A stretch of 39,480 nt of DNA, from assembly GCA_902619165.1 (NCBI GenBank), contig CACNDI010000020.1, forward strand, positions 1 through 39,480. The letters are read 5' to 3'. A program made the translations under genes and the position numbers. Of this stretch, positions 4,003 to 29,376 are shown in pieces. The DNA is from an uncultured Alphaproteobacteria bacterium. Lineage in GTDB: Bacteria > Pseudomonadota > Alphaproteobacteria > Rhodobacterales > Rhodobacteraceae. Position 1 is the stretch's first letter. Every line of letters starts with the position of its first letter. Below the pieces are notes generated by a model that did no database searches, was not told the origin of the DNA, and saw nothing but the letters and a program-made list of their open reading frames with translations.

Positions 4003-4374
4003 ATGAGTCTAGATCAAATAGCAAAGAGTTACAAACAGTCCGAAAATATGTATGTTAGAGGAATTGAGACCCCTCATGGAAGAGTACAAATAATATTTGA
4101 CCAGCTTGAAATAAACATAGAAAGCCTAATAGAAAAGCATCCCAAAACAGATTTTATTGCTTTTGGAAAGGTCATTCAGTGCCTAAAAATATTATCAGAT
4201 TCGCTGGATCATGAAAAAGGAAAAGGCTTAGCAGACCAATTGAATGAGCTGTACGATTATTGCTTAAGAACAGTAAAGAGTTATCTTACCGAAAAAGACG
4301 AAGCAAAGTTGAAAGAAGTTTTATCAATAGTAAATCAACTTTCTGAAAGTTGGAATAGTATTAAACCAAAATAA
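4003..4374 (+). CDS. fliS: Flagellin export chaperone FliS (copy 1)
   Basis: FliS binds flagellin in the cytoplasm and keeps it unfolded for export. The 123-residue product has the family layout: an N-terminal Tyr-containing segment (SYKQSENMYVRGIETPHGRVQIIFDQLE), a helix with LKILSDSLDHEKGKGLADQLNELYDYC, and a C-terminal helix ending SIVNQLSESWNSI, which corresponds to the usual 'LR.AW' end. Length is normal for FliS. The ATG follows CGGAGATAT. It stands alone between the divergent fliD operon and an unknown gene; a second FliS homologue lies at 7246. Flagellin itself is not in the window. Confidence 0.88.
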   Translation: MSLDQIAKSYKQSENMYVRGIETPHGRVQIIFDQLEINIESLIEKHPKTDFIAFGKVIQCLKILSDSLDHEKGKGLADQLNELYDYCLRTVKSYLTEKDEAKLKEVLSIVNQLSESWNSIKPK

Positions 4375-5073: not shown

Positions 5074-6756
5074 ATGTTTTGGAGAACTATCAATATAACA
5101 TTTCAGGTTTCTGTTACAGGGATAGTGATAGGGATAATAGTATCTCTATGTTCGATCGGCTTTGTTTTTGGTGTTCAAAATGCCTCTAACTTCAGAACAA
5201 GCTTTGGCTCATGTCTTTTTGACGTCGGAGGTTTGTGCTTTAGTGTAGCACCTTTAATTTTCCTTTTTATTACAGCTACAGTTATAATAATAGTAAAGAA
5301 GTACCTCAATATAGCTAGATACCACGGGCCAGCAGATGTAATCTTGAGCGCACATAGTAACGGTACAGATTTAGACGTAAAAACAGGCTTTTTATCTACT
5401 TTTGCGGCCTTTGTGTCAGCTTCAGGTGGTGCTTCAGTTGGCCAATATGGACCATTGGTTCATCTCGGTGGTACTATCGGTTCACTTATAAAAAGATATA
5501 CCCAAAACACGCTTACGAGGGATGTTTTTATTGGCTGCGGTGTTGCGGCAGCGATCTCGGCTGGGTTTAATTCACCTATTGGCGGTATGATTTTTGCGCA
5601 TGAGGCAATTCTAAGACATTTTTCTTTTAGAGCCATCGCTCCCATAGCGATTAGTAGTGTGGTGAGCGCTACGATAGCTAATCAATTTTTTCCTTCAGGG
5701 ATACTTTTTCAAAATACGGATGCAGATATCGCAGTTTTGCCTTCCGTAAGCATATCTCTTTTATTAGGACCTATATGTGCAATTATAGCTGTTGTTTTTA
5801 TGAGAGGATTGTTGTCGCTTCAAGCAAATTTAAATAAGATATCGTCTTCAGAAGTTCAGAGGATCTATATAGCGGCACTTATCTGTGGTTTATGCGGAGG
5901 ACTGATACCTGAAATCTTAGGATTGGGTGGTGATACAATTGAGGGAATATTATCGAATTCATACTCTTTAGCGTTTCTATTTATTATACTATTTTTCAAA
6001 TTATGCGTAACAGTTGTTTGCTTAAGTATGGGTTTTTTTGGAGGCGTATTCTCGCCTGCGTTAGTTTTAGGCGCAAGCGTCGGTGCAATTCTCACGGCAA
6101 TAGCCTCCCAAGTTGGGATCAATATACTAGGTGATTCACTAATTTTGGCTGCAATGGCCGCTCTATCAGCATCAGTGATTGGAGCACCTATCGCGTCTAT
6201 TGTGATTATTTTTGAGCTAACCCAGTCTTATGATCTGGCGTTCGTTGCCATAACTTGTGTGGCTAGTTCATGTGTAATAAGTAACGTGATATTTGGCCAT
6301 TCCTTTTTTGATAAACAGCTGCTCAATCGAAATTTTAAAATCTCCAGAGGAAGAACAGAAATTTTATTATCTGAGATCACTGTAAAGGACCTGTTAGGGA
6401 AAAATGACTTTCTCAAAGTAAAGTCAAATATTTTGAGGAAAGATTTATTACGAATGTTTGAAAAGTCAGAGTTTACAGAAGTGTATTTTGTTAATGATGA
6501 TGGGGTTCTTCTCGGCAAAACAAAGGTAAATGCTTTGTTACAAAAGAATACAACACTAATAGAAGATTCGTCACCATTGACGCTAAATATTAGCCTAGAT
6601 GTTTCTGATGCAATAGTAAAAGTGAGTAACTTTGTAGGTGAAAGCATCCCGGTGGTAGATCACAATGGTAAACTTGTGGGAGTATTGAACGAAGCGGACC
6701 TTTTCCTTCAGTATCTAAAGGTACAAGACGCTATTTCTCACATAGAAAAAGACTAA
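5074..6756 (+). CDS. ClC-family chloride channel with C-terminal CBS pair and non-canonical gate
   Basis: The 560-residue protein is a ClC-type anion channel or transporter of the inner membrane. About ten hydrophobic helices span residues 10-415, and two CBS domains (roughly 425-550, ending in PVVDHNGKLVGVLNEADLF) follow. The anion-pathway motif GGVFSPALVLG is intact. The first motif, normally G(K/R)EGP, reads GQYGP at residues 123-127: the gating glutamate is replaced by tyrosine (Y125) and the basic residue by glutamine. The position matching the internal proton glutamate of E. coli ClcA (E203) is alanine (helix AHEAILRHF). The later tyrosine (ELTQSYDLA) is kept. Loss of both glutamates points to a passive channel rather than a Cl-/H+ antiporter; this is inference. 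It ends one base before a convergent gene. Confidence 0.9.
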   Translation: MFWRTINITFQVSVTGIVIGIIVSLCSIGFVFGVQNASNFRTSFGSCLFDVGGLCFSVAPLIFLFITATVIIIVKKYLNIARYHGPADVILSAHSNGTDLDVKTGFLSTFAAFVSASGGASVGQYGPLVHLGGTIGSLIKRYTQNTLTRDVFIGCGVAAAISAGFNSPIGGMIFAHEAILRHFSFRAIAPIAISSVVSATIANQFFPSGILFQNTDADIAVLPSVSISLLLGPICAIIAVVFMRGLLSLQANLNKISSSEVQRIYIAALICGLCGGLIPEILGLGGDTIEGILSNSYSLAFLFIILFFKLCVTVVCLSMGFFGGVFSPALVLGASVGAILTAIASQVGINILGDSLILAAMAALSASVIGAPIASIVIIFELTQSYDLAFVAITCVASSCVISNVIFGHSFFDKQLLNRNFKISRGRTEILLSEITVKDLLGKNDFLKVKSNILRKDLLRMFEKSEFTEVYFVNDDGVLLGKTKVNALLQKNTTLIEDSSPLTLNISLDVSDAIVKVSNFVGESIPVVDHNGKLVGVLNEADLFLQYLKVQDAISHIEKD

Positions 6757-7245: not shown

Positions 7246-7626
7246 ATGAATAACAAAATCGCAAACCTATACAAGAATACTGATACAATAAAAGCTCCTC
7301 AAACAGATAATCCTAGAGCCATGCTTATCACAATATTTGATGAATTGCTAAATTCCATTAATGCCTTCCAGTCGAATATAATTCCTTCGTCTGATACATT
7401 TAGAAAAAAATCTTCAAGTTTTTCAAAAGCACTCACGATCCTGTATACGCTACAAGGTAGTATTGATTTTGAAAAAGATTTAGGAGTTGCAAAGAGCTTA
7501 TTTCAGATATATGAGTACACAAGAGTTGCGCTTATTGAAGAATTCAAGAGCTGTAAAATTGATAGGAGCCTCAAAGCCGTCAGTGCGTTATCGGAAATAA
7601 GAGAGAGCTGGAGTAGCATAGACTAG
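7246..7626 (+). CDS. FliS-like flagellar chaperone (copy 2)
   Basis: The 126-residue product has the FliS layout: NPRAMLITIFDELLNSINAF near residues 23-42, then SKALTILYTLQGSIDFEKDLGVAKSLFQIYEYTR and the C-terminal KAVSALSEIRESWSSI, matching the end of FliS at 4374 (LSESWNSI). It is only distantly similar to the first copy, so it is an old or separately acquired paralogue, not a recent duplication. Eight bases downstream begins a small helical gene in the position where fliT usually sits. It might serve a different client (a second flagellin or another late export substrate). The ribosome binding site is weak. Confidence 0.75.
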   Translation: MNNKIANLYKNTDTIKAPQTDNPRAMLITIFDELLNSINAFQSNIIPSSDTFRKKSSSFSKALTILYTLQGSIDFEKDLGVAKSLFQIYEYTRVALIEEFKSCKIDRSLKAVSALSEIRESWSSID

Positions 7627-7634
7627 AGGTCACC

Positions 7635-7937
7635 ATGACTACGATAAAATTCACGGAAATATCGAAGCTGAAAAATGAGATCGATCATGCTCTTGATGAA
7701 AATAATTTTGAAGAGCTTAATAATCTGTCAAATAGTCTAGAGGCCGTAGTGAAAGCGTTAGTCGAAGACAAAGACACAGCACGTAACCTTTCAAAAAGTG
7801 AGATCAATGTGCTTGTTAAGCTGCTTGAAGATATTTCTCGCTATGAGGAATTAACAAAAAAACGATTTAAAGACTATACGTACGGCGTATCACGAAGTCG
7901 GAAGATGCATGAAGCCTATAAACAAAGTCCTCGCTGA
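7635..7937 (+). CDS. Small helical protein, possible FliT-like export chaperone
   Basis: A 100-residue, highly charged and all-helical protein (ISKLKNEIDHALDENNFEELNNLSNSLEAVVKALV, then KLLEDISRYEELTKKRF). It follows the second fliS by eight bases and has an AGAGGTCACC ribosome binding site, so the two are surely co-transcribed. FliT proteins are small, helical, poorly conserved chaperones for FliD and are typically encoded directly after fliS. The assignment rests on position, size and predicted fold; I see no diagnostic motif. The stop is five bases from the end of the convergent fleQ-like gene. Confidence 0.6.
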   Translation: MTTIKFTEISKLKNEIDHALDENNFEELNNLSNSLEAVVKALVEDKDTARNLSKSEINVLVKLLEDISRYEELTKKRFKDYTYGVSRSRKMHEAYKQSPR

Positions 7938-7942
7938 TTTTT

Positions 7943-9055
7943 TTATTTTGAAATTCCATATTTCTTCATTTTCTCGATTAAAGTTGTTCTTCTAAGTTTT
8001 AATGCATCAGAGGCTTGACTAACCATTCCATCCGTCTTTTCCAACGCCGCTTCGATCATTACAATCTCTATTTCGCTAAGATGCCTCCTCAGATCCATTT
8101 TATCAAAATAAAGAAACCAATCCTTGTATTGCTCTGGTTTGGGAAGAGGCAGGTTGGTGACCTCTTCTTCTTTATCAATGGACTCCACCAAGTCAGTCGA
8201 GGCAGCCCATAACTCATCTTGTTCCTCATCAGGGTCAGGAACTTTCAATCTTAGTAGATTTTCCTTAACATTATCTCCAGACACCGATCTGTCGTTGAAT
8301 AATACAGATGCTCTTTCAATCACATTCCTCAACTCTCTTACGTTACCTGGCCAGTTGTAATTTGATAAAACCTTTATCGCATCTTCACTAAAGTTGACAT
8401 TAATTTCTTGGCCAGAAAATTTCATCTTCTCTATAATTCCTTGAATCAGGATAGGAACATCTACTGTTCTCATAGCTAGGTTTGGCACCTCTATTGGAAA
8501 TACATTTATCCTGTAAAAAAGGTCAGCTCTAAATTCACCCTTTTCTACTTTTTTATCTAAATCTTGATGGGTCGCGCATACCAGACGAAAATCAACGTCT
8601 ATTTCTTTATTTGAACCCACTCTCTGGATCTTCCGACCCTCTAATACTCTCAATAATTTGGATTGCAAAGGTAAGGGCATGTCTCCTATCTCATCTAGAA
8701 AAATCGTTCCATGATTTGCTTGCTCAAACCTTCCAGCTCTTGCACGATCTGCCCCAGTGAAGGCCCCTTTTTCATGTCCAAATAGCTCAGACTCTAAAAG
8801 CTCCGAAGGAATAGCGGCGCAATTTACTGAAATATTGCTTCCTTTCCTCCCTGATGCCACATGTAAGGCCTCTGCAACCAATTCTTTCCCTGTACCCGTC
8901 TCTCCTTGTATTAAAACAGTGGTAGCGGAAGCGCATACCATCTCAATTAGCTTTTTCATTTCTTTTATTGCTAATGAGTTTCCTAAAATAATTTTTTCTA
9001 TTGCCTGCATATATTTCGTATTCTCGTCAAAATTCTTACTAATGTTAGCATGCAA
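7943..9055 (-). CDS. fleQ: FleQ/FlrA-type sigma-54-dependent flagellar activator lacking a receiver domain
   Basis: An enhancer-binding protein that would open sigma-54 promoters by ATP hydrolysis. The AAA+ core starts almost at the N-terminus: Walker A GETGTGKE (residues 51-58), the sigma-54-contacting loop GAFTGA (97-102), Walker B GTIFLDEIG (116-124), arginine-finger region RADLFYRINVFPIEV and sensor II NWPGNVRELRN. The C-terminal HTH ends LKLRRTTLIEKMKKYGI, the characteristic FleQ/FlrA recognition helix. At 370 residues it lacks the roughly 130-residue FleQ domain found in Pseudomonas, so it may be constitutively competent or controlled by a partner. It is divergent from the fleT-like gene, whose sigma-54 promoter is a likely target. 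No clear ribosome binding site precedes the ATG. Confidence 0.88.
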   Translation of the reverse strand: MHANISKNFDENTKYMQAIEKIILGNSLAIKEMKKLIEMVCASATTVLIQGETGTGKELVAEALHVASGRKGSNISVNCAAIPSELLESELFGHEKGAFTGADRARAGRFEQANHGTIFLDEIGDMPLPLQSKLLRVLEGRKIQRVGSNKEIDVDFRLVCATHQDLDKKVEKGEFRADLFYRINVFPIEVPNLAMRTVDVPILIQGIIEKMKFSGQEINVNFSEDAIKVLSNYNWPGNVRELRNVIERASVLFNDRSVSGDNVKENLLRLKVPDPDEEQDELWAASTDLVESIDKEEEVTNLPLPKPEQYKDWFLYFDKMDLRRHLSEIEIVMIEAALEKTDGMVSQASDALKLRRTTLIEKMKKYGISK

Positions 9056-17925: not shown

Positions 17926-18501
17926 ATGGCAGAAGAAGAAAAAGAAGAAGAGCCTAAAAAAGGCGGGTTAATGAGAATAATTATGCTTGCTTTAGGAGCT
18001 ATTGCTTTAATAGGAATTGGTGTAGGAGCAGGATATTTTCTATTTGGAGGGACACCAGCTGACCCATCTACAGAAATAGAAGAAATAATTGAAAGAAAGA
18101 TGAAGGAAGCTGAAGAAGCAAAAGCGGCAGAGGAAGCCGCAAATGCTGGACCTCAAAAAAAAGAAGCTCCAGAAGTGGAAAAGTTTATAACGACTTATTA
18201 TGAGTTTCCAGGTAACTTTACAACAAACTTGAGAGGCTCTAGAAAGTTTTTACAAGCGGGAATCGGGGTTTCGACCCAATATGATGAAAACGTCATAACA
18301 AATGTGGAAGATCATCAATTATCTCTAAGGTCTAGTATTTTGGCTGTTATGAGTGAATTTTCTGAACAAGATATTGAGGGTAAATCTGGAAGAGATGCAC
18401 TCGCAAAAGCTATTGCAGCAGAGCTAAACACAAAATTGCAGGCTTTAGAAGGATTTGGAGGTATCGAGAACGTTCATTTTACTTCCTTTATGCTTCAATA
18501 A
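17926..18501 (+). CDS. fliL: Flagellar basal body-associated protein FliL
   Basis: FliL is a single-pass inner-membrane protein that forms a ring around the stator and supports torque. The 191-residue product has a short acidic/basic cytoplasmic start, one membrane helix near residues 17-42 (IIMLALGAIALIGIGVGAGY), a charged Glu/Ala-rich linker and a periplasmic domain (YYEFPGNFTTNLRGSRKFLQ, then DALAKAIAAELNTKL and the terminal VHFTSFMLQ). This matches the family pattern. Ribosome binding site AAGAGGACAGG. fliM follows 19 bases later. Confidence 0.92.
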   Translation: MAEEEKEEEPKKGGLMRIIMLALGAIALIGIGVGAGYFLFGGTPADPSTEIEEIIERKMKEAEEAKAAEEAANAGPQKKEAPEVEKFITTYYEFPGNFTTNLRGSRKFLQAGIGVSTQYDENVITNVEDHQLSLRSSILAVMSEFSEQDIEGKSGRDALAKAIAAELNTKLQALEGFGGIENVHFTSFMLQ

Positions 18502-19856: not shown

Positions 19857-19938
19857 ATAGGTCATTTTTTTGACGTTATTCGTTGAAAATTAATATTTTT
19901 CTTACAAAAGACGGCTAATTTACAAGAATAATTTCTTT

Positions 19939-19952
19939 GGCACAATATTTGC
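19939..19952 (+). promoter_or_regulatory. Sigma-54 promoter of fliOPQR-flhB and downstream genes
   Basis: TTTGGCACAATATTTGCC is a near-perfect sigma-54 promoter: TTGGCAC at -24, TTGC at -12, and GG (19939-19940) to GC (19951-19952) spacing of ten. The predicted start is near 19964, just ahead of the GGAGGCAGGT ribosome binding site of fliO. Confidence 0.9.
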
Positions 19953-19976: not shown

Positions 19977-20399
19977 ATGCAAGTTCAAGATATAAGCGTA
20001 ACTCAAATAGTTGTTGTATTACTCTTTTTAGGTGCTCTTATTGTTTTACAACAGTTACTGAAAAATAATAAATTTAGTTTCCAAAGTCATTTAAACAAAA
20101 AGAGAAGAATAAAATTCATTGATGAATTTGCTTTGAGTAATTCCGAGCGAATTAGATTAATTAGAGTTGATAACAAAGAATATCTTTATTTCTTTGTTAA
20201 AGGATCCCAACCAACAATTATTCCTCATGAAGGGAAAAATACATCAACAATTAAGCAAAATATTGAACTCAATACGCTGTCGGATAAAACGACTAACGAA
20301 CCGCGCAATAAGGAAAAATCAACCAGTAAGCCTAACATTTTGTCAGACGCGATATCTAATGCACGAAAAATGAATCCAAAGCTAGGATTTAAGAGATGA
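19977..20399 (+). CDS. fliO: Flagellar export-gate assembly protein FliO
   Basis: FliO is a membrane chaperone for assembly of the FliP ring. The 140-residue product has one N-terminal membrane helix (residues ~10-27, VVVLLFLGALIVLQQLL) and a basic cytoplasmic domain with the FliO-like strand pattern RRIKFIDEFALSNSERIRLIRVDNKEYLYFFV, followed by a Thr/Lys-rich disordered tail. The family is poorly conserved; position directly before fliP, with a four-base ATGA overlap, settles it. Confidence 0.88.
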   Translation: MQVQDISVTQIVVVLLFLGALIVLQQLLKNNKFSFQSHLNKKRRIKFIDEFALSNSERIRLIRVDNKEYLYFFVKGSQPTIIPHEGKNTSTIKQNIELNTLSDKTTNEPRNKEKSTSKPNILSDAISNARKMNPKLGFKR

Positions 20400-21175
20400 T
20401 AAAACTCAAAAATATACTAGCATTGCTACCGATAATATTCTTATTTCTTTTAGCTGGTTCTGCCTTTGCACAGAATGGGATATCAAACTTTGCGGAAGGA
20501 CTCCCAGCTTTGAAAGTTGAAAGCAATGGGGACTCAGAAACAACCTACTCCTTATCGCTACAGATCCTTGCTCTAATGACCGGGTTGACCCTGCTCCCCT
20601 CCATAGTGCTAGGAGCTACTTCGTTCACCAGAATAATAATTGTTTTGTCAATACTCAGACAAGCTATGGGAACGCAACAAACTCCACCAAACCAGGTTCT
20701 TATAGCGATAGCACTTTTCTTAACTTTCTTTATTATGACCCCAACACTGACGGAAATAAATAAAATAGCCCTTGACCCCTATCTTGAAGGGGAATTACCA
20801 GCAAAAACAGCATTATCTAAGGGATCAAATACCCTTAAGGAATTTTTGGTAAAAAATACTAGAGAAAATGATTTATCTATGTTTACGGATTTAATCGGCA
20901 ATGAAGGATATCGTGGTCATGAGGATATACCACTCACCGTAATACTCCCAGCTTTCATTACATCAGAATTGAAAACTGCTTTTCAAATAGGCTTTCTTCT
21001 TTTCCTTCCTTTTCTGGTTATAGATATGGTGATTGCCTCGATATTGATGTCCTTAGGAATGATGATGCTCAGTCCTATGTTAGTCGCCCTTCCGTTTAAG
21101 CTTCTCCTTTTTGTTCTGGTTGATGGTTGGGCAATGACGGTGGGATCGCTGGTAGCAACGTATGTGTCAAATTAA
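20396..21175 (+). CDS. fliP: Flagellar export-gate protein FliP
   Basis: FliP builds the core channel of the type III export gate with FliQ and FliR. The 259-residue product has a cleavable signal peptide (residues 1-26, ending AGSAFA-QNG), then the conserved TSFTRIIIVLSILRQAMGTQQTPPNQVLIAIALFLTFFIM region (key parts TRIIIVLSILRQA and TPPNQVL) and, near the C-terminus, LMSLGMMMLSP with PFKLLLFVLVDGW. Length and motifs are standard. Confidence 0.97.
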   Translation: MIKLKNILALLPIIFLFLLAGSAFAQNGISNFAEGLPALKVESNGDSETTYSLSLQILALMTGLTLLPSIVLGATSFTRIIIVLSILRQAMGTQQTPPNQVLIAIALFLTFFIMTPTLTEINKIALDPYLEGELPAKTALSKGSNTLKEFLVKNTRENDLSMFTDLIGNEGYRGHEDIPLTVILPAFITSELKTAFQIGFLLFLPFLVIDMVIASILMSLGMMMLSPMLVALPFKLLLFVLVDGWAMTVGSLVATYVSN

Positions 21176-21190
21176 AAAAGGAGCCTTGGC

Positions 21191-21463
21191 ATGGAATTCG
21201 ACAAGAACATCACTTATTTAGAAGATGCTTTCTGGCAAATAATTATTTCAGCAGGCCCAGTCCTAATAGTGGCACTTGGCATAGGCCTCTTGATTGGTAT
21301 AATTCAGGCAGCAACTTCGATCAATGAAATGACCTTGAGTTTTGTTCCAAAGTTAGTTCTTGTTCTTCTGACTTTGGCTTTGATTGCAAATTTTATGTTA
21401 ACTGGTCTTTCCGATTACTTTGCGTTTATTTTTGATCAAATAGCCGCAATCGGTCAAGCCTAA
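21191..21463 (+). CDS. fliQ: Flagellar export-gate protein FliQ
   Basis: FliQ is a two-helix subunit of the export channel. The 90-residue protein has membrane helices near residues 14-36 (IIISAGPVLIVALGIGLLIG) and 52-74 (VPKLVLVLLTLALIANFML), with the conserved loop IQAATSINEMTLSFVPK. Ribosome binding site AAAGGAG. Two bases separate its stop from the fliR start. Confidence 0.97.
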   Translation: MEFDKNITYLEDAFWQIIISAGPVLIVALGIGLLIGIIQAATSINEMTLSFVPKLVLVLLTLALIANFMLTGLSDYFAFIFDQIAAIGQA

Positions 21464-21465
21464 AA

Positions 21466-22281
21466 ATGGAACAATCAATTAACGAGATTATTCCAGGCCT
21501 AGGGCTTCACAATATAATAGAAATATTGCTGGCTTTTTTTTTAACTTCCATCAGACTTAGTGCGTTCATTATTGCATCACCTTTTTTTAGTGCACGATTC
21601 ATAATGTTGAGAGTAAGAATAATAATTGCGTTTGTAATTTCAATTGTAGTTTTTTCAATTCAACCTATGGATTTAGACACTCAGGTACTTACCTCTGCCT
21701 ACGGTATCGCTATTATTTTTAAAGAGATTGCTATAGGCGCGACCGCTGGACTAATACTTTCTATAATGTTCTCAGCAGCTTCGTTAGCAGGGGAAAAAAT
21801 TGCAACCAGCGCAGGCTTAAGTTATGCAGCCCAAGTAGACCCAGTTTCTGGCGTCCAGACACCCGTGGTGAGCCAAATTTTGTATCTTTTCCTTATAATG
21901 ATTTTTTTGACAGTTAATGGTCACCTTGTAGCACTAAGGATCATAATTGAAAGTTATAATTTCATCCCTATAGGTACGCTTCCAGTTCCTTCAGCATTAA
22001 TAGATGGTGGAATGGCTGCTTCAGGCTCCATGTTCTTAAATGCATCAATAATTATGATGCCAGTTGTTCTGGTAGTATTACTCATCAATGTGGCAATAGG
22101 AATAATTACTCGATCGGCTCCACAATTAAATTTGTTTTCATTTGGTTTCCCAATCACAATGCTTGGTACTTTTATCGTTTTATATTTTTCCATAAGCAAC
22201 CTAGGATTTGCGTTCTCAGATTTGATTGATTCATCTCTCGACCATCTAATGACAACTCTTGAAAGTTTAAAAGATGGCTGA
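21466..22281 (+). CDS. fliR: Flagellar export-gate protein FliR
   Basis: FliR completes the FliPQR channel. The 271-residue product has six or more hydrophobic helices and the family region IFKEIAIGATAGLILSIMFSAASLAGEKIATSAGLSYA (key part KEIAIGATAGLIL) followed by DPVSGVQTPVVSQILYL; the C-terminus contains IGIITRSAPQLNLFSFGFPITMLGT (key part RSAPQLNLFSFGFP). The last eight bases overlap the start of flhB. Confidence 0.96.
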   Translation: MEQSINEIIPGLGLHNIIEILLAFFLTSIRLSAFIIASPFFSARFIMLRVRIIIAFVISIVVFSIQPMDLDTQVLTSAYGIAIIFKEIAIGATAGLILSIMFSAASLAGEKIATSAGLSYAAQVDPVSGVQTPVVSQILYLFLIMIFLTVNGHLVALRIIIESYNFIPIGTLPVPSALIDGGMAASGSMFLNASIIMMPVVLVVLLINVAIGIITRSAPQLNLFSFGFPITMLGTFIVLYFSISNLGFAFSDLIDSSLDHLMTTLESLKDG

Positions 22282-23428
22282 AGAAAACCAAGATGGACAG
22301 GAAAAAACGGAAGAGCCTTCCCAACGCAAAATTGACAAACATAAAGAAGACGGAAAGGTTTTAAGTTCCAAAGAAATGTTTGTTTTCACAGGGATTGCAG
22401 CAGCTTTGTTGCTTATGTACGCTTTTTCTTTTGCATTTAAACCAATTTTATTTGAATGGGGAAATCTATTTGTTTTCACAGGAAATGACAAGCTGGACGA
22501 TTTACCAACAACAAAATCACTAGATGCTTTATTTTTTATAATAAAAATCTCTCTATATGTTGGCGTGCCAATGTTAGTCGTTGTATTGGCTACGCAATTT
22601 GCCGTTGGAGGTATAAATTTTGCACCCAAAGCCCTTTCTTTTAAATCTAATAGAATTAATCCGTTAAGTGGATTAAAAAGAATGTTCTCCTTAAAGAGTT
22701 TAGTTGAGCTCGGAAAAGCATTATTAAAAGTCGGTTTGTTATTTGCAAGTGCTATTGGCGTAATTTATTATTTGCTGCCCCAAATACTGCGAATAACAGA
22801 TGGTAATTTAAAGACTGGGCTAGAACTCACTCAATCTTCTTTTCCACTCTTGATAGGAGCCTTGCTGATTTGTTTATTGATAATAGCGGCAATAGACTAT
22901 TTTTATCAAAGGTACGAGCACATTAAGTCTCTTCGAATGACCAAGCAAGAAGTTAAAGACGAGTATAAACAGACGGAGGGTTCCCCTGAAGTAAGAGCGA
23001 AAATAAGGCGACTTCAAATGGAAAGTGCCACGAAATCTGCAAAGCAGCAAGAAGCTTTAGAAAATATGGGTGAAGCCACAGCTATTATAACAAACCCAAC
23101 GCATTTTGCTGTTGCTCTCAAATACGAAGTTGGGCAATTAGGAGCCCCCAAAATCATTGCGATGGGTAAAGGACTGATTGCAAAAAGGATAATAGATATC
23201 GGCTCTGAGAAGAACATAACAAGTTTTCGAAGCCCACTACTCGCCAGAGCATTATTTTTTACAGGAGAAATTGGAGAAGAGATCTCTGAAAAGCTTTACA
23301 ATGCGGTGGCAGTAGCACTAGCATATGTTTATAAACTAGATAGAGGGGAAGATATAGTAACCCCAGATATTGATGTTCCAGAGGATTTAAGATTCAATGA
23401 AAATGGAAAGATTTTGAAGGAGAATTGA
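22274..23428 (+). CDS. flhB: Flagellar export switch protein FlhB
   Basis: FlhB controls substrate switching from hook to filament export. The 384-residue product starts with the conserved GQEKTEEPSQRKIDKHKEDG segment, has four membrane helices, and carries the autocleavage motif NPTH (around base 23095, in AIITNPTHFAVAL). This is followed by the conserved KYEVGQLGAPKIIAMGKG and FRSPLLARALF. Length is standard. Unlike many gamma-type clusters, the gene is not followed by flhA but by four small accessory genes. Confidence 0.97.
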   Translation: MAEENQDGQEKTEEPSQRKIDKHKEDGKVLSSKEMFVFTGIAAALLLMYAFSFAFKPILFEWGNLFVFTGNDKLDDLPTTKSLDALFFIIKISLYVGVPMLVVVLATQFAVGGINFAPKALSFKSNRINPLSGLKRMFSLKSLVELGKALLKVGLLFASAIGVIYYLLPQILRITDGNLKTGLELTQSSFPLLIGALLICLLIIAAIDYFYQRYEHIKSLRMTKQEVKDEYKQTEGSPEVRAKIRRLQMESATKSAKQQEALENMGEATAIITNPTHFAVALKYEVGQLGAPKIIAMGKGLIAKRIIDIGSEKNITSFRSPLLARALFFTGEIGEEISEKLYNAVAVALAYVYKLDRGEDIVTPDIDVPEDLRFNENGKILKEN

Positions 23429-23429
23429 T

Positions 23430-23657
23430 ATGCCTAGAAGAAGCCACGAATCTCTTGGAGACTATATAAGTTCCGCTTGCTTTGGAGGAGTTGCTTTTCT
23501 ATCCCTATTAAACGGTCTTGAAGCATTTTATGCAGGCAATATTTTAAGAGCTGTAGTTATTTGGATTGTCTGTTTTTTGTTGTGCTTAGCTGTCTTTAGA
23601 TATGCAATAGCTCGCCTTTTTGACTCTATAAATGAGAAAAAAAATAGAAAATCATGA
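23430..23657 (+). CDS. Small two-helix membrane protein of unknown function, 75 aa
   Basis: The ATG follows AAGGAGAATTGAT, an excellent ribosome binding site, one base after the flhB stop. The product has two predicted membrane helices (SACFGGVAFLSLLNGLEAFY and LRAVVIWIVCFLLCLAVF) and basic ends. I do not recognise a family. It shares four bases with the next gene, so it belongs to the fliO-flhB transcript. A role in export-gate or motor biogenesis is possible but only by context. Confidence 0.8.
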   Translation: MPRRSHESLGDYISSACFGGVAFLSLLNGLEAFYAGNILRAVVIWIVCFLLCLAVFRYAIARLFDSINEKKNRKS

Positions 23658-23848
23658 TAACTTGTAATCAATGCATTCATTTATTTATTACACATGATCC
23701 TAGACGAAGGTGGGGTTGTCGAAAGTTTGGTTTCAAGTCGTCAAGGATTCCTTACCAGGAGGTTATGGCAACAACTGGCATGAAATGTGCTTACTATAAA
23801 CGTAGAAATGTAGAAAAGACAATTGAATCTCGCAGGAGGTCACATTAA
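23654..23848 (+). CDS. Small four-cysteine, zinc-ribbon-like protein, 64 aa
   Basis: The start overlaps the previous stop (ATGA) and the stop overlaps the next start (TAATG), so it is embedded in the operon. The protein begins MITCNQCIHLFITHD and contains RRRWGCRKFGFKS and then TGMKCAYYKRR. Cysteines C4, C7, C22 and C45 are placed like a small zinc-binding fold. I recall similar short proteins with 'C..C.H..IT.D...P.GC..FGFKS....P' in other bacteria, always uncharacterised, but cannot confirm that here. It could be a metal-dependent regulator or assembly factor. Confidence 0.8.
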   Translation: MITCNQCIHLFITHDPRRRWGCRKFGFKSSRIPYQEVMATTGMKCAYYKRRNVEKTIESRRRSH

Positions 23849-24597
23849 TGAGTTCAGATCTAAGTACAATCGAAGAAAGTATTAAAATCGCCCTAGATGC
23901 AGCAGACGCGGCGACTGATGTAACCTCTGAATACAACAAAGTAAAAAGAGAGCATAAAAAACTGGAGACACAAGTGAAGCAAATACATCGTTATACGACT
24001 ATAATTTTTGGAAGCTCTATGATCGCAGCAATAGTAGCGATGATATTTTCATCCGTGCTCTATTTCCGCTCAATGTCAGACTTGAGCGTGATGACTACTA
24101 CAAATAGAGAGGCTCTTGTAATTTTTGCAGAAAATGTTGATGATCTCAAAGATAACGTCAAAGCTTTATCAGTGGCCATGGAGAGTCAGGTAGCACTCGA
24201 AAAACAGAATGCGAAATTAGTAGAGGAGTTATCTTCTTTGAGAAAAGAAATTTCTGTTGCAACAAACGCTCTCGCCAGCAGAGTGCTTGAACAAAACAAA
24301 GGCTTACAAGACGCAATGACTAAAAATACAGAGCAAGCGGTTAATATATTTGCTGAAAAAATAGCCCAATCATTTGAAAAAAGGCTTAATGAGCTTAGTA
24401 AAGGAATTGACGCTTATCAAAATGAACTCCTCGCTTCTTTAAAGAACATTAATACTTCTTCCTCTGACAATATGGTAATGGAAGAGATATCTAAGTCTCA
24501 GAACCAATTAACAAAAGAAATCAGATCTCTCTATAAAAAGAACGAAGAAATATTCAGTAAAATTAAGAGCTCAGATGGACTGATTAAATTCCCATGA
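23848..24597 (+). CDS. Membrane-anchored coiled-coil protein of unknown function, 249 aa
   Basis: The ATG follows GCAGGAGGTCACATTA. The N-terminal ~45 residues form a cytoplasmic helix (ending EHKKLETQVKQIHRY), a single membrane span lies near residues 51-72 (IIFGSSMIAAIVAMIFSSVLYF), and the remaining ~175 residues are long coiled coil (for example ALEKQNAKLVEELSSLRKEI and KRLNELSKGIDAYQNELLASL). The second half resembles the helical-hairpin style of sensory or cell-pole scaffolds but has no MCP signalling motif. Co-transcribed with flhB and the PDZ-like gene 19 bases downstream. Confidence 0.8.
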   Translation: MSSDLSTIEESIKIALDAADAATDVTSEYNKVKREHKKLETQVKQIHRYTTIIFGSSMIAAIVAMIFSSVLYFRSMSDLSVMTTTNREALVIFAENVDDLKDNVKALSVAMESQVALEKQNAKLVEELSSLRKEISVATNALASRVLEQNKGLQDAMTKNTEQAVNIFAEKIAQSFEKRLNELSKGIDAYQNELLASLKNINTSSSDNMVMEEISKSQNQLTKEIRSLYKKNEEIFSKIKSSDGLIKFP

Positions 24598-24616
24598 TTT
24601 CTTGGAATAAGCTACT

Positions 24617-25483
24617 ATGCAAGATTTAGATAGTCAACAATCAGAGAGTGAAAACGAGGACTTCATTAAGCCAGAAATGTCCGACACAAATTCTATTGCA
24701 TTAAACGAAAGTTCTTCTGAAGAAGCACAACTGCAAACTTTCTTAAAGCTTAAAGAGCATGGCCAATCTTCTAGAACTAAAGCTTTAAGACTGAAAGAAA
24801 ATGATGTGATAGTTGCGGTAGATGGAAGCAGTTATCACGAGAGCATAGATAAATTGGTTGATCTACTGTCCAGTGGAGAAGAAGATGACATGTGGCTCTT
24901 AACGGTATGGAGGAATGGCAAGTTTTTTGAGATATTTACCAGAGGTCCATTAGGTGGAATTTTTGAATTCACTCGTCCTGAGGAGTCTCAGATGATTATG
25001 GAATTGTTTCAGAAAAGGGAAATGGGACAGAAAGAGGAATACCGTATTTTTGAGGCACTGAGAGACGTTAAAAGAGTCGTAGATGTCTACGATACGACAC
25101 ATTCTCAGCTCGCAGTTATCTTACCTCCAGTATGGTTGCTGCAACAGAAAATGTGGGAGCCATTGCTAGCAATACTTTGTGTCTACCTTATCACCTTCAG
25201 CGTAAACATATATCTTTTTATATTAGCAGTCGTTTTAGTAAGCCTCTATTTAAGAAAAGGCCAAGTCACTCTTAGAAGAAGCTACGGGCTGTTTCAGGAT
25301 CGGCAAGTATGGGCAATAGTTGCGGCAAGATCAGATAAAGAAGCTCAAGAGATGTGTCGAAACCTCGATGAAAAAGTTAATTTTATAAATGCCGTTGTAA
25401 AACCTTATAAAAAGGAAGTTCATAAGCCTAGGAAAAAAAATAAATCAGGAAATGTTCTCAAAGCCTCACAACAATACACGTAA
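24617..25483 (+). CDS. PDZ-like membrane protein of unknown function, 288 aa
   Basis: An acidic, Ser/Glu-rich N-terminal ~45 residues precede a PDZ-like segment (ALRLKENDVIVAVDGSSY, then LVDLLSSG and WLLTVWRNGKFFEI, residues ~56-108), where the 'L..ND.I..VDG' turn is typical of PDZ carboxylate-loop proteins. A linker helix leads to a hydrophobic hairpin (residues ~181-212, PLLAILCVYLITFSVNIYLFILAVVLVSLYL in outline) and a basic C-terminal domain. Both soluble parts are probably cytoplasmic. Last gene of the fliO operon. No known family recognised; a scaffold role at the flagellar base is conjecture. Confidence 0.8.
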   Translation: MQDLDSQQSESENEDFIKPEMSDTNSIALNESSSEEAQLQTFLKLKEHGQSSRTKALRLKENDVIVAVDGSSYHESIDKLVDLLSSGEEDDMWLLTVWRNGKFFEIFTRGPLGGIFEFTRPEESQMIMELFQKREMGQKEEYRIFEALRDVKRVVDVYDTTHSQLAVILPPVWLLQQKMWEPLLAILCVYLITFSVNIYLFILAVVLVSLYLRKGQVTLRRSYGLFQDRQVWAIVAARSDKEAQEMCRNLDEKVNFINAVVKPYKKEVHKPRKKNKSGNVLKASQQYT

Positions 25484-26527
25484 GAACCCTGAATAAGTTT
25501 AACTACTTACTTAGCCATACATTTTTTTTTCAGTGTTAATTTTACTAAAAAGTATGTATTGATCTCTCTCTATACCTTCCTACAATAAATAGGTGGATAA
25601 ATGTATGGACTTTCAAAGAAAGAATATAGAGTAACGAGCAATTAGATTGGGTGGCTAGCACTAATTTCAGTAAATCTCACCAATACTTTTTTGGGTCATA
25701 ACAAGCTTTTTTGATGTTGTTTTAAATACAAAATGCCTATTTTTACTTAAATTATACTCGATCGTTTCAAAGTAATTCTGGAAAATTTCTTTAGTATTAT
25801 CCTTCACTAATCTTAATTTAAGAAATTCTCTACAACTTAGACTTTTAATAGATCAATCTCGGTTCATTATAGCGCTGTAAAAAATAAAATTCTTTTTTTG
25901 CAGAATTAAGTTAAATAATAAAAAAAATTTAATGATCTTACCTTTATATTTTAATTGGTTTATGAAAACCAAAGAGGCAGATTTGCCGTTATAATGATAT
26001 ATCTTATCGCATGACTCACTGCTTTTGCTTTTCCAGTTATTGATCTCATCTACAAAACAACAGGGATACCAAATTTGCTAATGACGTTCTGAAGAAGAGA
26101 AACAAATGACTATTGCGAAAATAATTTTCTGATTTTTTTGCGATTAATCTTATAAAATTTCTACAATCCTACTTTTAATGCAATAAGTAAATCCTATTTT
26201 TTCATATCACTCCATAGGCCTAAATCCTCTCTTTGGCGGGAACTTTTATATATAGCTCAGCGAGGTTAGATAAAATCAGGAGCAAGCACATGCGTATGGA
26301 TGCGTTTTTAGATTCCTCCATTTTAAATAAATTTTAGTATCCATCGCATAAAAGTCACAATTTTGGTTATTAAAATCAACAAGCTCTTTACTACCTTAGT
26401 TTCAAAGTTGATAACGTAAATAGTAATTGTTATATCTATCAAAATATTGCTGTAAGATTTTTGTTGATATCGTAGTTTAACAATGCATTTGTTACAAATA
26501 AATTCTTACGGCGTTAGAGTAAGATTA
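25484..26527. other. 1-kb AT-rich region without a convincing gene
   Basis: This is the longest apparently non-coding stretch in an otherwise densely packed window. Both flanking operons end here (PDZ-like gene from the left, motB from the right). I see no tRNA or rRNA, no IS ends and no array of repeats. The best open stretch is minus strand 26077-25856 (74 codons, beginning after a stop and without a start codon), containing a protein-like run WKSKSSESCDKIYHYNGKS; it could be a remnant of a decayed gene or chance. No strong terminator was seen for either operon. Confidence 0.5.
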
Positions 26528-27688
26528 TCAGAAATTTATTTCAATCTCAATTCTTCTATTTTTTTCTCTTCCAGCAGAAGTCTCATTTGTATCAATTGGC
26601 TTTGACTCACCAAAGCTCACCGCTTTCATTCTATCTGTGCTTATGTTTCCTGCTTTTTCGAGCTCTTGCACTACACTAGATGCTCTAGCTGCAGCTAAAT
26701 CCCAGTTGTCTCTGAAATTTCCTCCAAACATCAAGGGAACATTATCAGTATGGCCAGAAACAGTCACTGTCCCTGTCTCTCCTACCCCCTTATCGGCAAT
26801 TTTTGCCATAATCTGTCTTGCTTGAGACGTTAACTCCGCTGATCCTGATGAAAATGCTCCACCAGAGCCTACTGTCACGAAGACCTTGCCATCTTTTCTT
26901 TCTACACTAACAAGACCCTTATCTATTTCATTTTTTAAAGCAACTTCAAGTTCATTCGCTGCTTGATTGGCTGACGCTTCTTCTGCCGACATTTCTTTAT
27001 CTGATACCCCTGAACCGGAATCTTTTGATGAACCTTTTGTTTCGCCATCAGCCTCTGTCTGTGCAAGAGAGGCTAATTCCTTTAATTTCTCCTCAAGACC
27101 CCCAAAAAGTACCTCTTGATCAGCATTACCTGTTTTATTCTTAGCTTCTTCAATAGCTTCTAGCGTTTCTTGTATCAACTTAGGAAGGTCCTTCGCCAAA
27201 GTCTCTTCATCACCTATTTCTACTTTTACAGCTTCCCCAATTGCTTCTACTTTTATTTCTCCTTTATCAACAGCTTCTTGAAGGGCCTCTACTAATTCCT
27301 TAGCTTTTTTATCGTTCTCGCCTCCCTCATCTTCTTCCGTTTTTACTTCAAGCTCTTTTTTTTCAAGATTAGTTGTTTGTTGGGTCATCTGCTTTGTAAC
27401 TGATGGACTAGGAGAAGGGCTAAAGTTTAAGGACAATACCGTAGTTCCTTTTGGTTGCTCAACAACAGGAACCAACCTTTGAACACCAAATGCATTTTTC
27501 AACGAGCCGGATATCTGCTTAAATTTGGGCACATTAAATTCTGCAAATGACAGTATCAGAACAAAGAATGCCATTAAAAGAGTCGCCATATCTGCAAAAG
27601 TTGCCATCCATGCAGGAGCCCCAACAGGAGGGCACTTAGGGCATTCCTCTTCCTCTTCTTCTATCTCAGCTTCTACTTCTTCTGCCAC
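26528..27688 (-). CDS. motB: Sodium-type flagellar stator protein MotB/PomB with enlarged linker
   Basis: MotB anchors the stator to peptidoglycan and forms the ion channel with MotA. The start is GTG at 27688 after GAGGGAAC. Residues 15-70 (CPKCPPVGAPAWMATFADMA, then FKQISGSLKNAFGVQ) closely resemble PomB of Vibrio; D33 is the ion-binding aspartate. The C-terminus is an OmpA-like peptidoglycan-binding domain (VSGHTDNVPL, then NWDLAAARASSVVQEL and GREKNRRIEI). At 386 residues it exceeds the usual 300-330: residues ~131-159 (ELVEALQEAVDKGEIKVEAI) look like a second copy of the pre-OmpA unit at ~246-275 (ELEVALKNEIDKGLVSVERK). Encoded 29 bases after motA. Confidence 0.92.
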   Translation of the reverse strand: MAEEVEAEIEEEEEECPKCPPVGAPAWMATFADMATLLMAFFVLILSFAEFNVPKFKQISGSLKNAFGVQRLVPVVEQPKGTTVLSLNFSPSPSPSVTKQMTQQTTNLEKKELEVKTEEDEGGENDKKAKELVEALQEAVDKGEIKVEAIGEAVKVEIGDEETLAKDLPKLIQETLEAIEEAKNKTGNADQEVLFGGLEEKLKELASLAQTEADGETKGSSKDSGSGVSDKEMSAEEASANQAANELEVALKNEIDKGLVSVERKDGKVFVTVGSGGAFSSGSAELTSQARQIMAKIADKGVGETGTVTVSGHTDNVPLMFGGNFRDNWDLAAARASSVVQELEKAGNISTDRMKAVSFGESKPIDTNETSAGREKNRRIEIEINF

Positions 27689-27717
27689 TTCTATGTTCCC
27701 TCAAGATCCAAATCTTA

Positions 27718-28482
27718 TTAAGCGGCAGCTTCAAGTTTTTGTTGGACTGCAGGTGGTAAATTAGCCACCATCTGATCTTGAATATTCCGAGGAGATTCTC
27801 CTCTTGCTATATTTCTGAGACCCATAACCACCATTTCTCTATATGTCACCTCATATGCGGTATATCCTTCTAGGGACGTAATCATCGGCAAGAACAAAAC
27901 GTTTGCTATAAAAGCACCATACAGAGTGGTTAAAAGAGCGACAGCCATAGCCGGGCCGATAGCCTTCGGGTCGGCCATATTTCCCAACATTAAAACCAAT
28001 CCGACAAGAGTGCCAATCATTCCCATTGCTGGGGCAATGTCTATCCAGGCTTTTACAACACCTTGATTAGTCTCGTGGCGTGCCTTCATAGCCTTTATCT
28101 CTTGATTTAATTGCGTCGTCAGTTTGGCCTCATCTGCCCCGTCAACAAGCATCTGTAATCCCTTGGAAAAAAACTTATCAGGCACGTCTTGACCTTCAAG
28201 TGCCATCATTCCATCTTTCCTAGCAATACCCGCTAATTCCACCATTTTTGTTACTAATTCATCTTGAGGTTTCACAGGTGGAAAAAAAGCCTTTGCCATC
28301 ACGCCGAAAGAGCCAAGAAACGTTGGCAAAGGACATGTGTACATGACACAAAAGAAAGTTCCACCAAAAACGATAGCTAGTGAAGGTACATCTATAAAAG
28401 GACCAACGCCGCCGCCTGAAACCATTGCGTATATAATAAATCCAAGAGCTCCGATTAATCCAAGAAGAGAGGCTATATCCAT
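27718..28482 (-). CDS. motA: Flagellar stator protein MotA/PomA
   Basis: MotA surrounds MotB and applies torque to FliG. The 254-residue product starting MDIASLLGLIGALGF resembles PomA: four membrane helices, the cytoplasmic loop VELAGIARKDGMMALEG with conserved charged residues, and DIAPAMGMIGTLVGLVLMLGNMADPKAIGPAMAVALLTTLYGA (key part PAMGMIGTLVGL). An in-frame upstream TTG at 28536 would add 18 residues, but it falls inside the -12 box of the sigma-54 promoter, whereas the ATG at 28482 has AAAGGAAA in front and starts the protein at the normal PomA position. I therefore use 28482. The stator is probably Na+-driven, inferred from similarity to PomAB. Confidence 0.94.
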   Translation of the reverse strand: MDIASLLGLIGALGFIIYAMVSGGGVGPFIDVPSLAIVFGGTFFCVMYTCPLPTFLGSFGVMAKAFFPPVKPQDELVTKMVELAGIARKDGMMALEGQDVPDKFFSKGLQMLVDGADEAKLTTQLNQEIKAMKARHETNQGVVKAWIDIAPAMGMIGTLVGLVLMLGNMADPKAIGPAMAVALLTTLYGAFIANVLFLPMITSLEGYTAYEVTYREMVVMGLRNIARGESPRNIQDQMVANLPPAVQQKLEAAA

Positions 28483-28532
28483 AGTTTTTCCTTTATCCTC
28501 ATTATGTTTTATTACCTGCAACGATAACCACT

Positions 28533-28546
28533 GCAATTATAGTACC
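28533..28546 (-). promoter_or_regulatory. Sigma-54 promoter of motAB
   Basis: On the minus strand, TTTGGTACTATAATTGCA has GG (28546-28545) and GC (28534-28533) ten bases apart and a good TTGC -12 box; the -24 box reads TTGGTAC rather than TTGGCAC. The predicted start near 28521 gives a leader of about 39 bases to the motA ATG at 28482. Confidence 0.75.
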
Positions 28547-28642
28547 AAAAAAATTCAACTAATTTAAAAAATGAAAATTTTTGGCATCAAACTTGTTTAT
28601 GAATATAATAATGTTATATACAAATACAAGAAAACTAATCCG

Positions 28643-29122
28643 ATGCTAAACTTACGATTGACAGCGATATGTTGGGTTTTAATACTAACTGGTACTATTT
28701 CTAATGCTAGTGACAGTAGATTTGTTGTAAAAGACCACATTGTTATAGATCTGGAACATAAAATTGAATGGTTAAGATGTTCCGTTGGCCAGAGGTGGGA
28801 CGGGAATAAGTGTTCAGGGAAAATTGTGAACTTATCTTTAGATCTCGTACCAGAAGCGATAAATATTGCTAATGAACAACTAGGCGGAAATTGGCGATTA
28901 CCTTCAAAGGCAGAGCTTACATCTATAGTTTGTAAGAGCTGCCCTTCTCCTAAGATAAATGTAAAAATCTTTCCCAACACGGATAATGCGCCGTACTGGA
29001 CAAGTAACCGCAGTATTTTTAACAGTAAATTCTACGTTAGCGTAAATTTCCACACTGGATTTTCCTTTAATAGATTTTCTCCGATCAAAGATCTAGCGGT
29101 AAGGTTGGTAAGGGATAGATAA
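28643..29122 (+). CDS. Exported DUF1566 (Lcl C-terminal-like) protein
   Basis: The most sensible start is the ATG at 28643, giving MLNLRLTAICWVLILTGTISNAS, a clear signal peptide; an in-frame ATG at 28571 would add 24 residues ahead of it and lies at the divergent promoter region. The mature ~135-residue domain has the DUF1566 pattern: DLEHKIEWLRC, CSGKIV, GGNWRLPSKAELTSIV, then FPNTDNAPYWTSN and a terminal AVRLVRD. Cysteine pairs (RCSVGQRWDGNKC and CKSC) may form disulfides. Members occur in surface or periplasmic proteins of unclear function. Its link to motility is positional only. Confidence 0.75.
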   Translation: MLNLRLTAICWVLILTGTISNASDSRFVVKDHIVIDLEHKIEWLRCSVGQRWDGNKCSGKIVNLSLDLVPEAINIANEQLGGNWRLPSKAELTSIVCKSCPSPKINVKIFPNTDNAPYWTSNRSIFNSKFYVSVNFHTGFSFNRFSPIKDLAVRLVRDR

Positions 29123-29133
29123 AAATACTAGAG

Positions 29134-29376
29134 TTACATTTTCTTTTCAATTTTATCTGTTTTCCACTGCCAAAGCTTAAACAAAAATACAACTAGTCCA
29201 AACACCAAAACGAGTATTGCTATTAAATCTGTAGAAATAAATGTCAATAAATGCATTTTGTCACTGGCAACTAAGCCTAACACTATGAGCATTACTGTAG
29301 CCATTATAAAAGATCTAATTAACCTACACGTAAAGCACGGACCCTCGGGAGCATTTTTCTGTTTTATTCTAAACAT
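29134..29376 (-). CDS. Small two-helix membrane protein, 80 aa
   Basis: The ATG at 29376 follows GCGAGGAAAATTATA. The product has a CFTC motif near the N-terminus (residues 14-17), two membrane helices (FIMATVMLIVLGLVAS and LIAILVLVFGLVVFLFKLW) and a Lys-rich tail. It is divergent from rpoN and convergent with the DUF1566 gene (stop-to-stop 11 bases). I recognise no family. Confidence 0.65.
   Translation of the reverse strand: MFRIKQKNAPEGPCFTCRLIRSFIMATVMLIVLGLVASDKMHLLTFISTDLIAILVLVFGLVVFLFKLWQWKTDKIEKKM

Follow-up and report, generated by a model that had tools for sequence, protein, structure and literature searches.

A putative MotF operon behind flhB

The 39,480-nucleotide window analysed here is the entire contig C20 (CACNDI010000020.1) of assembly GCA_902619165.1 (2.28 Mb, 51 contigs, 87.8% complete) from an uncultured bacterium of the Rhodobacteraceae, and carries a flagellar cluster in which four small genes, named orf1 to orf4, directly follow flhB. 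As judged by profile homology and synteny, orf3 is an orthologue of MotF of Cereibacter (Rhodobacter) sphaeroides. The four genes together likely constitute a MotF operon, that is, a stator-activation module of a horizontally acquired sigma-54 flagellum in which MotF would be the effector and orf4 its partner. A more far-reaching version of this proposal, to which we give about even chances, holds that MotF is the effector of a conserved inner-membrane complex with orf4, helped in most of the lineages sampled by orf1 and orf2, and that this complex belongs to an ancestral form of the flagellum, common among SAR116 and their relatives, of which a reduced version persists in C. sphaeroides. The elements of the locus are as follows.

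19938..19952, + strand: sigma-54 (-24/-12) promoter, exact TGGCAC-N5-TTGC
19977..23428, + strand: fliO, fliP, fliQ, fliR and flhB, export-gate operon (open reading frames and Pfam FliP, Bac_export_3, Bac_export_1 and Bac_export_2)
23430..23657, + strand: orf1, small membrane protein of 75 amino acids (alignment of 26)
23654..23848, + strand: orf2, 64 amino acids, cysteines C4, C7, C22 and C45 (alignment, AlphaFold2 model)
23848..24597, + strand: orf3, predicted MotF orthologue of 249 amino acids (profile homology and synteny)
24617..25483, + strand: orf4, PDZ-hairpin protein of 288 amino acids (AlphaFold2 model, PDB fold and profile matches to PDZ)

The flagellar cluster also includes two sigma-54 activators and the sigma-54 gene itself. 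The promoter sits 24 bases 5' of fliO and is the likely start of the transcript. Scanning the window for sigma-54 sites returned 2 exact and 8 one-mismatch sites against 1.67 expected, a total of 10 that none of 100 shuffles reached, although fewer than 10 of these sites are likely promoters. fliO matches Pfam FliO weakly (18.3 bits, cut-off 22). A single base separates the end of flhB (23428) from the start of orf1 (23430), orf1 and orf2 overlap by 4 bases (ATGA), orf2 and orf3 by 1 base, and 19 bases lie between orf3 and orf4. No + strand terminator-like site was found by sequence scan from flhB through the end of orf4; the scan as a whole returned 5 sites against a shuffle mean of 4.4, that is, no excess.

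The first-pass annotation had placed these four genes in one unit with flhB, joined by overlaps or short gaps and transcribed from the sigma-54 promoter of fliO, and had described them as locked into the operon. All four are indeed where it placed them, intact and constrained, the promoter is an exact match, and the gene order is kept among relatives as described below. Its claim of good ribosome binding sites stood for orf1 (AAGGAGA) and orf3 (AGGAGG) and fell for orf2 and orf4, whose sites are weak or absent. Compared with two close relatives (L067 and L070), omega was 0.02-0.08 for all four genes (0.021-0.083), indicating constraint, and that of orf3 (0.021-0.023) was lower than that of flhB (0.029-0.040); these values are rough because synonymous sites are near saturation (pS 0.54-0.73).

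orf3 is a predicted orthologue of C. sphaeroides MotF

To compare orf3 with its C. sphaeroides counterpart, profiles of 19 window-type and 4 C. sphaeroides-type proteins were aligned with hhalign, which gave 98.8% over 190 columns. The first 100 residues alone also gave 98.8% with a score of 90.6, against at most 17.2 for 50 column shuffles and 12.4 for the reversed profile. orf3 is predicted to comprise a conserved cytoplasmic N-terminus, one transmembrane helix at about residues 51-76, a periplasmic coiled coil and an invariant proline at its end. The mean number of lysines and arginines in 25 orf3 sequences is 4.5 before the helix and 1.9 after it, predicting an N-terminus inside and a large C-terminal part in the periplasm. 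With a start codon chosen by alignment, the C. sphaeroides protein has 239 amino acids, a mass of 24.8 kDa and a hydrophobic maximum at 54-72, and the published MotF is a 24-kDa protein with a transmembrane segment at 54-74 (PMC7277832; here and below, citations by PMC number refer to the parts of these papers that were accessible).

The C. sphaeroides genome used here, G051, was recognized by a 4-kb part of its 105-kb contig that shares 99.9% identity with a plasmid of strain 2.4.1; its 37-kb contig, tested likewise, had no match. Its flhB-orf3-orf4 locus lies on a contig of 3,188,524 bases. At this locus (L046), orf3 and then orf4 (7276-7950) come directly after flhB, and neither orf1 nor orf2 is present. 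The corresponding locus tags are RSP_0062 for fliO, RSP_0063 for fliP, RSP_0064 for fliQ, RSP_0065 for fliR, RSP_0066 for flhB and RSP_0067 for a hypothetical gene (PMC9779115). This published order, fliO to flhB and then a hypothetical gene, agrees with the gene order in G051. We take RSP_0067 to be motF of C. sphaeroides, as reportedly described by Ramirez-Cabrera et al. (2012).

In C. sphaeroides, MotF forms a polar focus, is needed for rotation of the Fla1 flagellum and acts through the MotB plug, mutations of which suppress the loss of motF; FlgT binds FliL, MotF and MotB, and recruits MotF (PMC7277832). The cluster RSP_0032 to RSP_0083 is classified as fla3-type, a type that accounts for 23 of 284 clusters in 306 Rhodobacterales genomes (PMC12363192). 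Since RSP_0067 is taken as motF, fla3-type corresponds to the Fla1 of PMC7277832, although a sentence in the discussion of PMC12363192 reads as if the flagellum names were paired otherwise. On sequence grounds, the fliO-flhB operon of the window is identified as the export gate of this Fla1 (fla3-type) flagellum.

orf3 thus resembles C. sphaeroides MotF in its first 100 residues, in the position of its transmembrane helix, in its similar size and in its place behind the same type of FlhB, within the same type of flagellum equipped with FlgT and FliL. It differs in being the third of four genes, whereas motF of C. sphaeroides directly follows flhB and precedes orf4, in a coiled coil that cannot be aligned, and in a host range that extends to SAR116. 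Another protein named MotF, in Sinorhizobium meliloti and Agrobacterium fabrum, shares with orf3 the name and a link to the stator; however, the accessible descriptions present it as a FliL paralogue, whereas orf3 does not match FliL even at E 1 and fliL is a separate gene of the window. The common name of the rhizobial and C. sphaeroides proteins is therefore a clash. Apolipoprotein-like matches to the orf3 coiled coil were rejected as composition noise. In two loci an unrecognised gene of about 190 codons, without a Pfam match, lies directly before motF on the opposite strand (L044 6929-7510, -; L048 4109-4678, -); in L044 it stands between orf1 and motF.

Gene order is conserved among distant relatives

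Relatives were sought with an orf3 profile of nine proteins in a named genome collection, and the best 80 of 151 were kept. Their titles name SAR116 (34), unspecified Alphaproteobacteria (32), Rhodospirillaceae (4), Rhodobacteraceae or Paracoccaceae (3), Proteobacteria (2) and, once each, Planktomarina, Puniceispirillum, Rhodobiaceae, Pelagibacterales and Gammaproteobacteria. Profiles of the four proteins, built from 4 to 9 family-sample proteins, located orf1 in 79 of the 80 loci, orf2 in 80, orf3 in 80 and orf4 in 78, with lowest scores of 28, 62, 153 and 74 bits, respectively. The order flhB-orf1-orf2-orf3-orf4 and its strand were kept in all 77 loci carrying the five genes, and the remaining three (L063, L108 and L136) are interrupted by contig ends. 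orf2 was invariably at this place, and orf4 lay 3' of orf3 in 78 of the 80 loci, the other two ending before orf4.

Nearly all aligned relatives are 15-50% identical to the proteins of the window. The loci are not independent: at less than 75% orf3 identity, 81 four-gene loci (77 of the 80 and 4 from the family sample) collapse to 21 representatives, and L074 and L077 may repeat genomes used to build the profiles. Patristic distances gave Spearman coefficients of 0.81 for orf4 and FlhB, 0.71 for orf3 and FlhB, and 0.78 for orf4 and orf3, next to 0.69 for fliP and flhB; those of orf1 and orf2 with FlhB were 0.50 and 0.36. Each pair exceeded all 199 permutations. These correlations indicate that the inheritance of orf4 and orf3 tracks that of FlhB.

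orf1 and orf3 accompany one type of FlhB

Three samples were searched: 100 genomes of the family, including the window's own, 191 of the class and 299 from across the phylum. In the family sample, the window-type FlhB was set apart by E values of at most 1.4e-90, the next match having 4.9e-47, and occurred in 10 genomes, the window's own included. orf3 scored at least 241 bits in nine of these ten and was found in none of the other 90, two of which gave at most 20.9 bits. In the neighbourhoods that we read, orf4 adjoined orf3 in all nine orf3-bearing genomes. orf1 came after flhB in nine of the ten, the exception being the C. sphaeroides locus, and orf2 was at the locus in five of the ten; orf1 of G045 was placed by position and alignment, and orf2 of G030 was identified separately. 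With the orf4 protein of the window as a query, matches were obtained in 8 of the 100 genomes, the C. sphaeroides copy being missed.

In the class sample, where the window-type FlhB scored at least 425 bits and the next match 312, it occurred in 5 of 191 genomes, and orf1 and orf3 were found in those same five. A conserved flagellar unit tied to one flhB type, as first annotated, is thus borne out. Weak extra matches were given by orf3 in G464 and G502 (at most 24.7 bits) and by orf1 in G478 (20.6 bits). orf4 exceeded 140 bits in four of the five genomes, the fifth (G514) ending within orf3, and in G484. Its profile matched 77 of the 191 genomes in all, just five of them above 140 bits; the others reached no more than 31.4 bits, resemble PDZ domains or hairpin-like segments within other proteins, and were excluded from the count. 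Across the phylum, orf3 was found only in the window's own genome, five others scoring at most 28.3 bits. The weak orf3 matches of all samples (28.3 bits or less) were rejected as composition noise, the first 36 profile positions being uncovered in every one.

orf4 combines a PDZ domain with a membrane hairpin

The AlphaFold2 model of orf4, computed from 25 sequences (mean predicted local distance difference test, pLDDT, 86.5), comprises a PDZ domain at about residues 43-118, a mixed part and a DUF2628-like helical hairpin at about 180-226, with 10-residue means of 86-97 over residues 41-120. Foldseek paired it with many PDZ chains at probability 1.00 (best E 7.8e-4), the PDZ domains of RseP and GRASP being among the best rows; the chains in these rows contain PDZ domains, and none was seen to match the hairpin half specifically. 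Furthermore, the orf4 profile matched DegQ in the PDB at E 2.4e-9. At E up to 0.01, 15 of 25 members matched PDZ_6 and 10 of 25 matched DUF2628 (best 8e-6). The PDZ-like character first noted for orf4 is thus upheld by model, fold and profile. orf4 shares the PDZ fold with the domains of Do, DegQ and RseP, but has no protease domain.

Window-type and C. sphaeroides-type orf4 profiles match at 99.7%. We infer a partnership of orf4 with MotF from its retention beside motF in C. sphaeroides and from distances that run parallel to those of FlhB and orf3. Positive charges follow the hairpin (mean lysine and arginine count 2.9 after and 1.2 before, 25 sequences), so that both ends of orf4, including the PDZ domain, are predicted to lie inside. 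One orf4 protein (L045) had no match in the plasmid collection. No description of orf4 was found in the accessible parts of PMC7277832, PMC9779115, PMC10954123, PMC9812332, PMC12222027 and PMC12363192, which come from an open-licence body of literature that mostly excludes subscription journals.

The stator partners of MotF are present

Two further elements of the window bear on MotF.

26528..28536, - strand: motB and motA (Pfam MotB_plug 1.3e-17, OmpA 2e-16, MotA_ExbB 2.9e-28)
17926..18501, + strand: fliL (Pfam FliL 1.9e-17)

motB and motA are convergent with the four genes, and FliL is the other plug-remodelling factor of C. sphaeroides. FlgT_N was detected at E up to 0.1 in all 10 genomes tested, 8 of them above the cut-off, and in none of 14 control genomes. 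In the window's own genome (G000) it is on contig C11, which also carries flhA; the two genes lie about 1 kb apart in 5 of 5 genomes tested for both. Therefore, the partners of C. sphaeroides MotF, namely FlgT, FliL and MotAB, are all present in this genome. PF01545, TIGR02160 and other weak family matches were rejected as composition noise.

Proposed model

What this analysis brings to the model is the gene order, the co-occurrence, the homology of orf3 to MotF, the detection of FlgT, FliL and MotAB, and a PDZ fold seen by structure prediction and profile. MotF would have its N-terminus in the cytoplasm, cross the inner membrane with one helix and extend its coiled coil into the periplasm, where it could be recruited by the FlgT H-ring. 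Together with FliL, it would help shift the plug helix of MotB, after which the stator could conduct protons. By analogy with C. sphaeroides, the role of MotF in rotation may hold in this clade too. orf4 would be the standing partner of MotF, a hairpin-anchored adaptor of the inner membrane that holds MotF and, via MotF, the stators at the base. orf1 may be a small helper in the membrane, associated with flhB more closely than with motF, and orf2 a small accessory protein that binds metal and might assist folding or insertion. The roles given to orf1, orf2 and orf4 are our proposals.

Observations against a MotF module and alternative explanations

Several observations weigh against this model. 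The coiled coil of orf3 has no detectable homology to that of C. sphaeroides MotF (hhalign 0.43%), orf4 of the window stays below the Pfam cut-offs of PDZ_6 (17.5 bits, cut-off 27) and DUF2628 (22.7 bits, cut-off 23), and FlgT_N is below cut-off in G039 and G097. A convergent motB was present in just 40 of the 64 loci having more than 3 kb beyond orf4. Binding of the invariant C-terminal proline of MotF by the PDZ domain of orf4 was set aside: charge counts assign the PDZ domain to the inner side of the membrane and the tail of MotF to the outer side, and a predicted cytoplasmic PDZ domain cannot reach a periplasmic C-terminus, which makes such a pairing unlikely. G484 has orf4 (299 bits) and no match for flhB, orf1 or orf3; this is likely an assembly gap, its contig ending in orf4, and motA, motB and rpoN lie alongside. 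The C. sphaeroides locus lacks orf1 and orf2, so neither is required next to motF at that site. orf2, which is short, tracks the distances of orf3 (0.28) and orf4 (0.22) poorly. Finally, 16 of 18 orf2-family neighbourhoods show no flagellar genes, and G076 has a window-type flhB and orf1 with no orf3 match anywhere in the genome.

In the first alternative, orf1, orf2 and orf4 are accessories of the export gate that help FlhB and FliPQR assemble or switch specificity and motF is just co-transcribed. That orf1 stays behind flhB in G076 though motF is gone ties orf1 to the export gate and not to MotF, and the genes stand directly behind flhB, in constant order and with coupled or close starts. 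However, motF and orf4 remain together in the C. sphaeroides locus that lacks orf1 and orf2, and in G076, without motF, orf4 was not found either, whether with the window sequence genome-wide, a query that also missed the C. sphaeroides copy, or with the profile on the flhB contig. We therefore regard an export-gate accessory set as rather unlikely for the group as a whole, a possible gate-side role being left to orf1 because of G076. This genome also implies that a flagellum of this type need not include MotF. On its 312-kb flhB contig, the only one searched for them, motB, fliL and motA had no match. As a genome with window-type FlhB and orf1 in which motF was not found, G076 (contig C17; L049 and L246) offers a natural test case for how MotF relates to the MotB plug.

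The second alternative, in which the genes encode a platform at the base of the flagellum that serves as a scaffold or for polar placement and replaces part of the role of FlhF and FlhG, appears improbable. A membrane-anchored PDZ protein next to a coiled-coil protein is a scaffold-like pair, and PDZ-like domains occur in PflC, the motor accessory protein that in Campylobacter jejuni builds the periplasmic medial disk (PMC12222027). Yet a role of MotF in rotation is known in C. sphaeroides and the PDZ domain of orf4 is predicted to be cytoplasmic. As far as it is described there, PflC is an HtrA-like protein of the periplasm and contains two PDZ-like domains, whereas orf4 has one PDZ domain, a membrane hairpin and no protease part. 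The membrane scaffold suggested by the first-pass annotation would fit orf4 and orf1, but stator activation is the more specific reading of the evidence. That the four are chance neighbours, small genes riding on operon inheritance with no joint function, is disfavoured and hardly credible: the orf2 family does occur in many other settings, but the order held in 77 of 77 loci at 15-50% identity, omega was 0.02-0.08, and orf1 and orf3 co-occur with one FlhB type.

A stator-activation module remains our preferred reading. The first-pass annotation had proposed an undescribed module; this fails for orf3, which corresponds to a protein characterised in C. sphaeroides, and for orf2, whose family is widespread (see below). 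The partner proteins of MotF look undescribed. What is added here is a wider range of MotF, a constant four-gene setting and a candidate PDZ partner. MotF has been described as restricted to some Rhodobacteraceae (PMC7277832) or as Cereibacter-specific (PMC10954123), and its occurrence in SAR116-titled loci extends beyond both. No open-licence paper on SAR116 flagella with FlhB was found. Part of an "unknown gene" block in SAR116-type bacteria is thereby explained. SAR116 and related bacteria are common in the sea. MotF is one of the factors genetically tied to an open question, namely what unplugs stators and keeps them at the motor, and orf4, right behind motF in C. sphaeroides, is a candidate partner in an organism for which published motF mutants and suppressor alleles of MotB exist.

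orf1 and orf2

orf1 probably has two membrane helices. Across 26 aligned proteins, I13 and R57 are invariant and G10, F18 and I60 nearly so. No Pfam family was matched by more than 1 of the 26 members at E up to 0.01, and the window's orf1 had no Pfam or NCBIfam match above the curated cut-off.

The four cysteines first noted in orf2 are invariant in 34 of 34 aligned members, from which we infer that the protein binds metal. Its AlphaFold2 model (mean pLDDT 82.4) is a small ribbon-like fold that matched no PDB structure at E up to 0.001. The window protein has no Pfam match above cut-off, and among 22 members searched against NCBIfam none exceeded the cut-off, one member each matching two families (best E 0.011). 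The family was found in 59 of the 299 phylum-wide genomes, the window's own included, spread over Pseudomonadota. The neighbourhoods counted above were 18 of the 58 outside the window's own genome; the two with flagellar genes are L176, from its listed translations, and L187, from matches to window proteins. Consequently, the idea of orf2 as a flagellum-specific gene was rejected, the family lying mostly in non-flagellar settings, an outcome that the first-pass annotation had itself named as refuting its proposal. Translations read by eye, with no family search, placed iron-sulfur (SUF-like) genes in several of these neighbourhoods and unrelated genes in others. In L173, L174, L178, L180 and L181, read in the same way, the orf2-family gene comes after a gene for a Rieske-like ferredoxin, which hints that the family may be connected to iron-sulfur assembly in those genomes.

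Other features of the flagellar cluster

Between orf4 and motB, 1 kb (25484-26527) contains no called gene and has a G+C content of 28.6%, compared with 36.8% for the window. Of 12 close loci used for comparison, 4 have this stretch at 84-88% identity and 8 show no match, and neither this gap nor the rest of the window matched Rfam at gathering scores. Two fliS genes (4003-4374 and 7246-7626, + strand) and a gene for a ClC-type chloride channel with a CBS domain (5074-6756, + strand) also lie in the cluster. Between the Lcl_C gene described next and rpoN, a small cysteine-bearing membrane protein is encoded at 29134-29376 (- strand; DsbB match weak and below cut-off), and small genes that look alike by eye adjoin the Lcl_C gene in L234, L235 and L236. 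The Lcl_C-domain protein gene itself (28571-29122, + strand; Pfam 2.9e-20) lies between motA and rpoN and has a relative in all 32 kept loci that contain motA and extend 700 bases or more past it, making it a possible further flagellar accessory gene.

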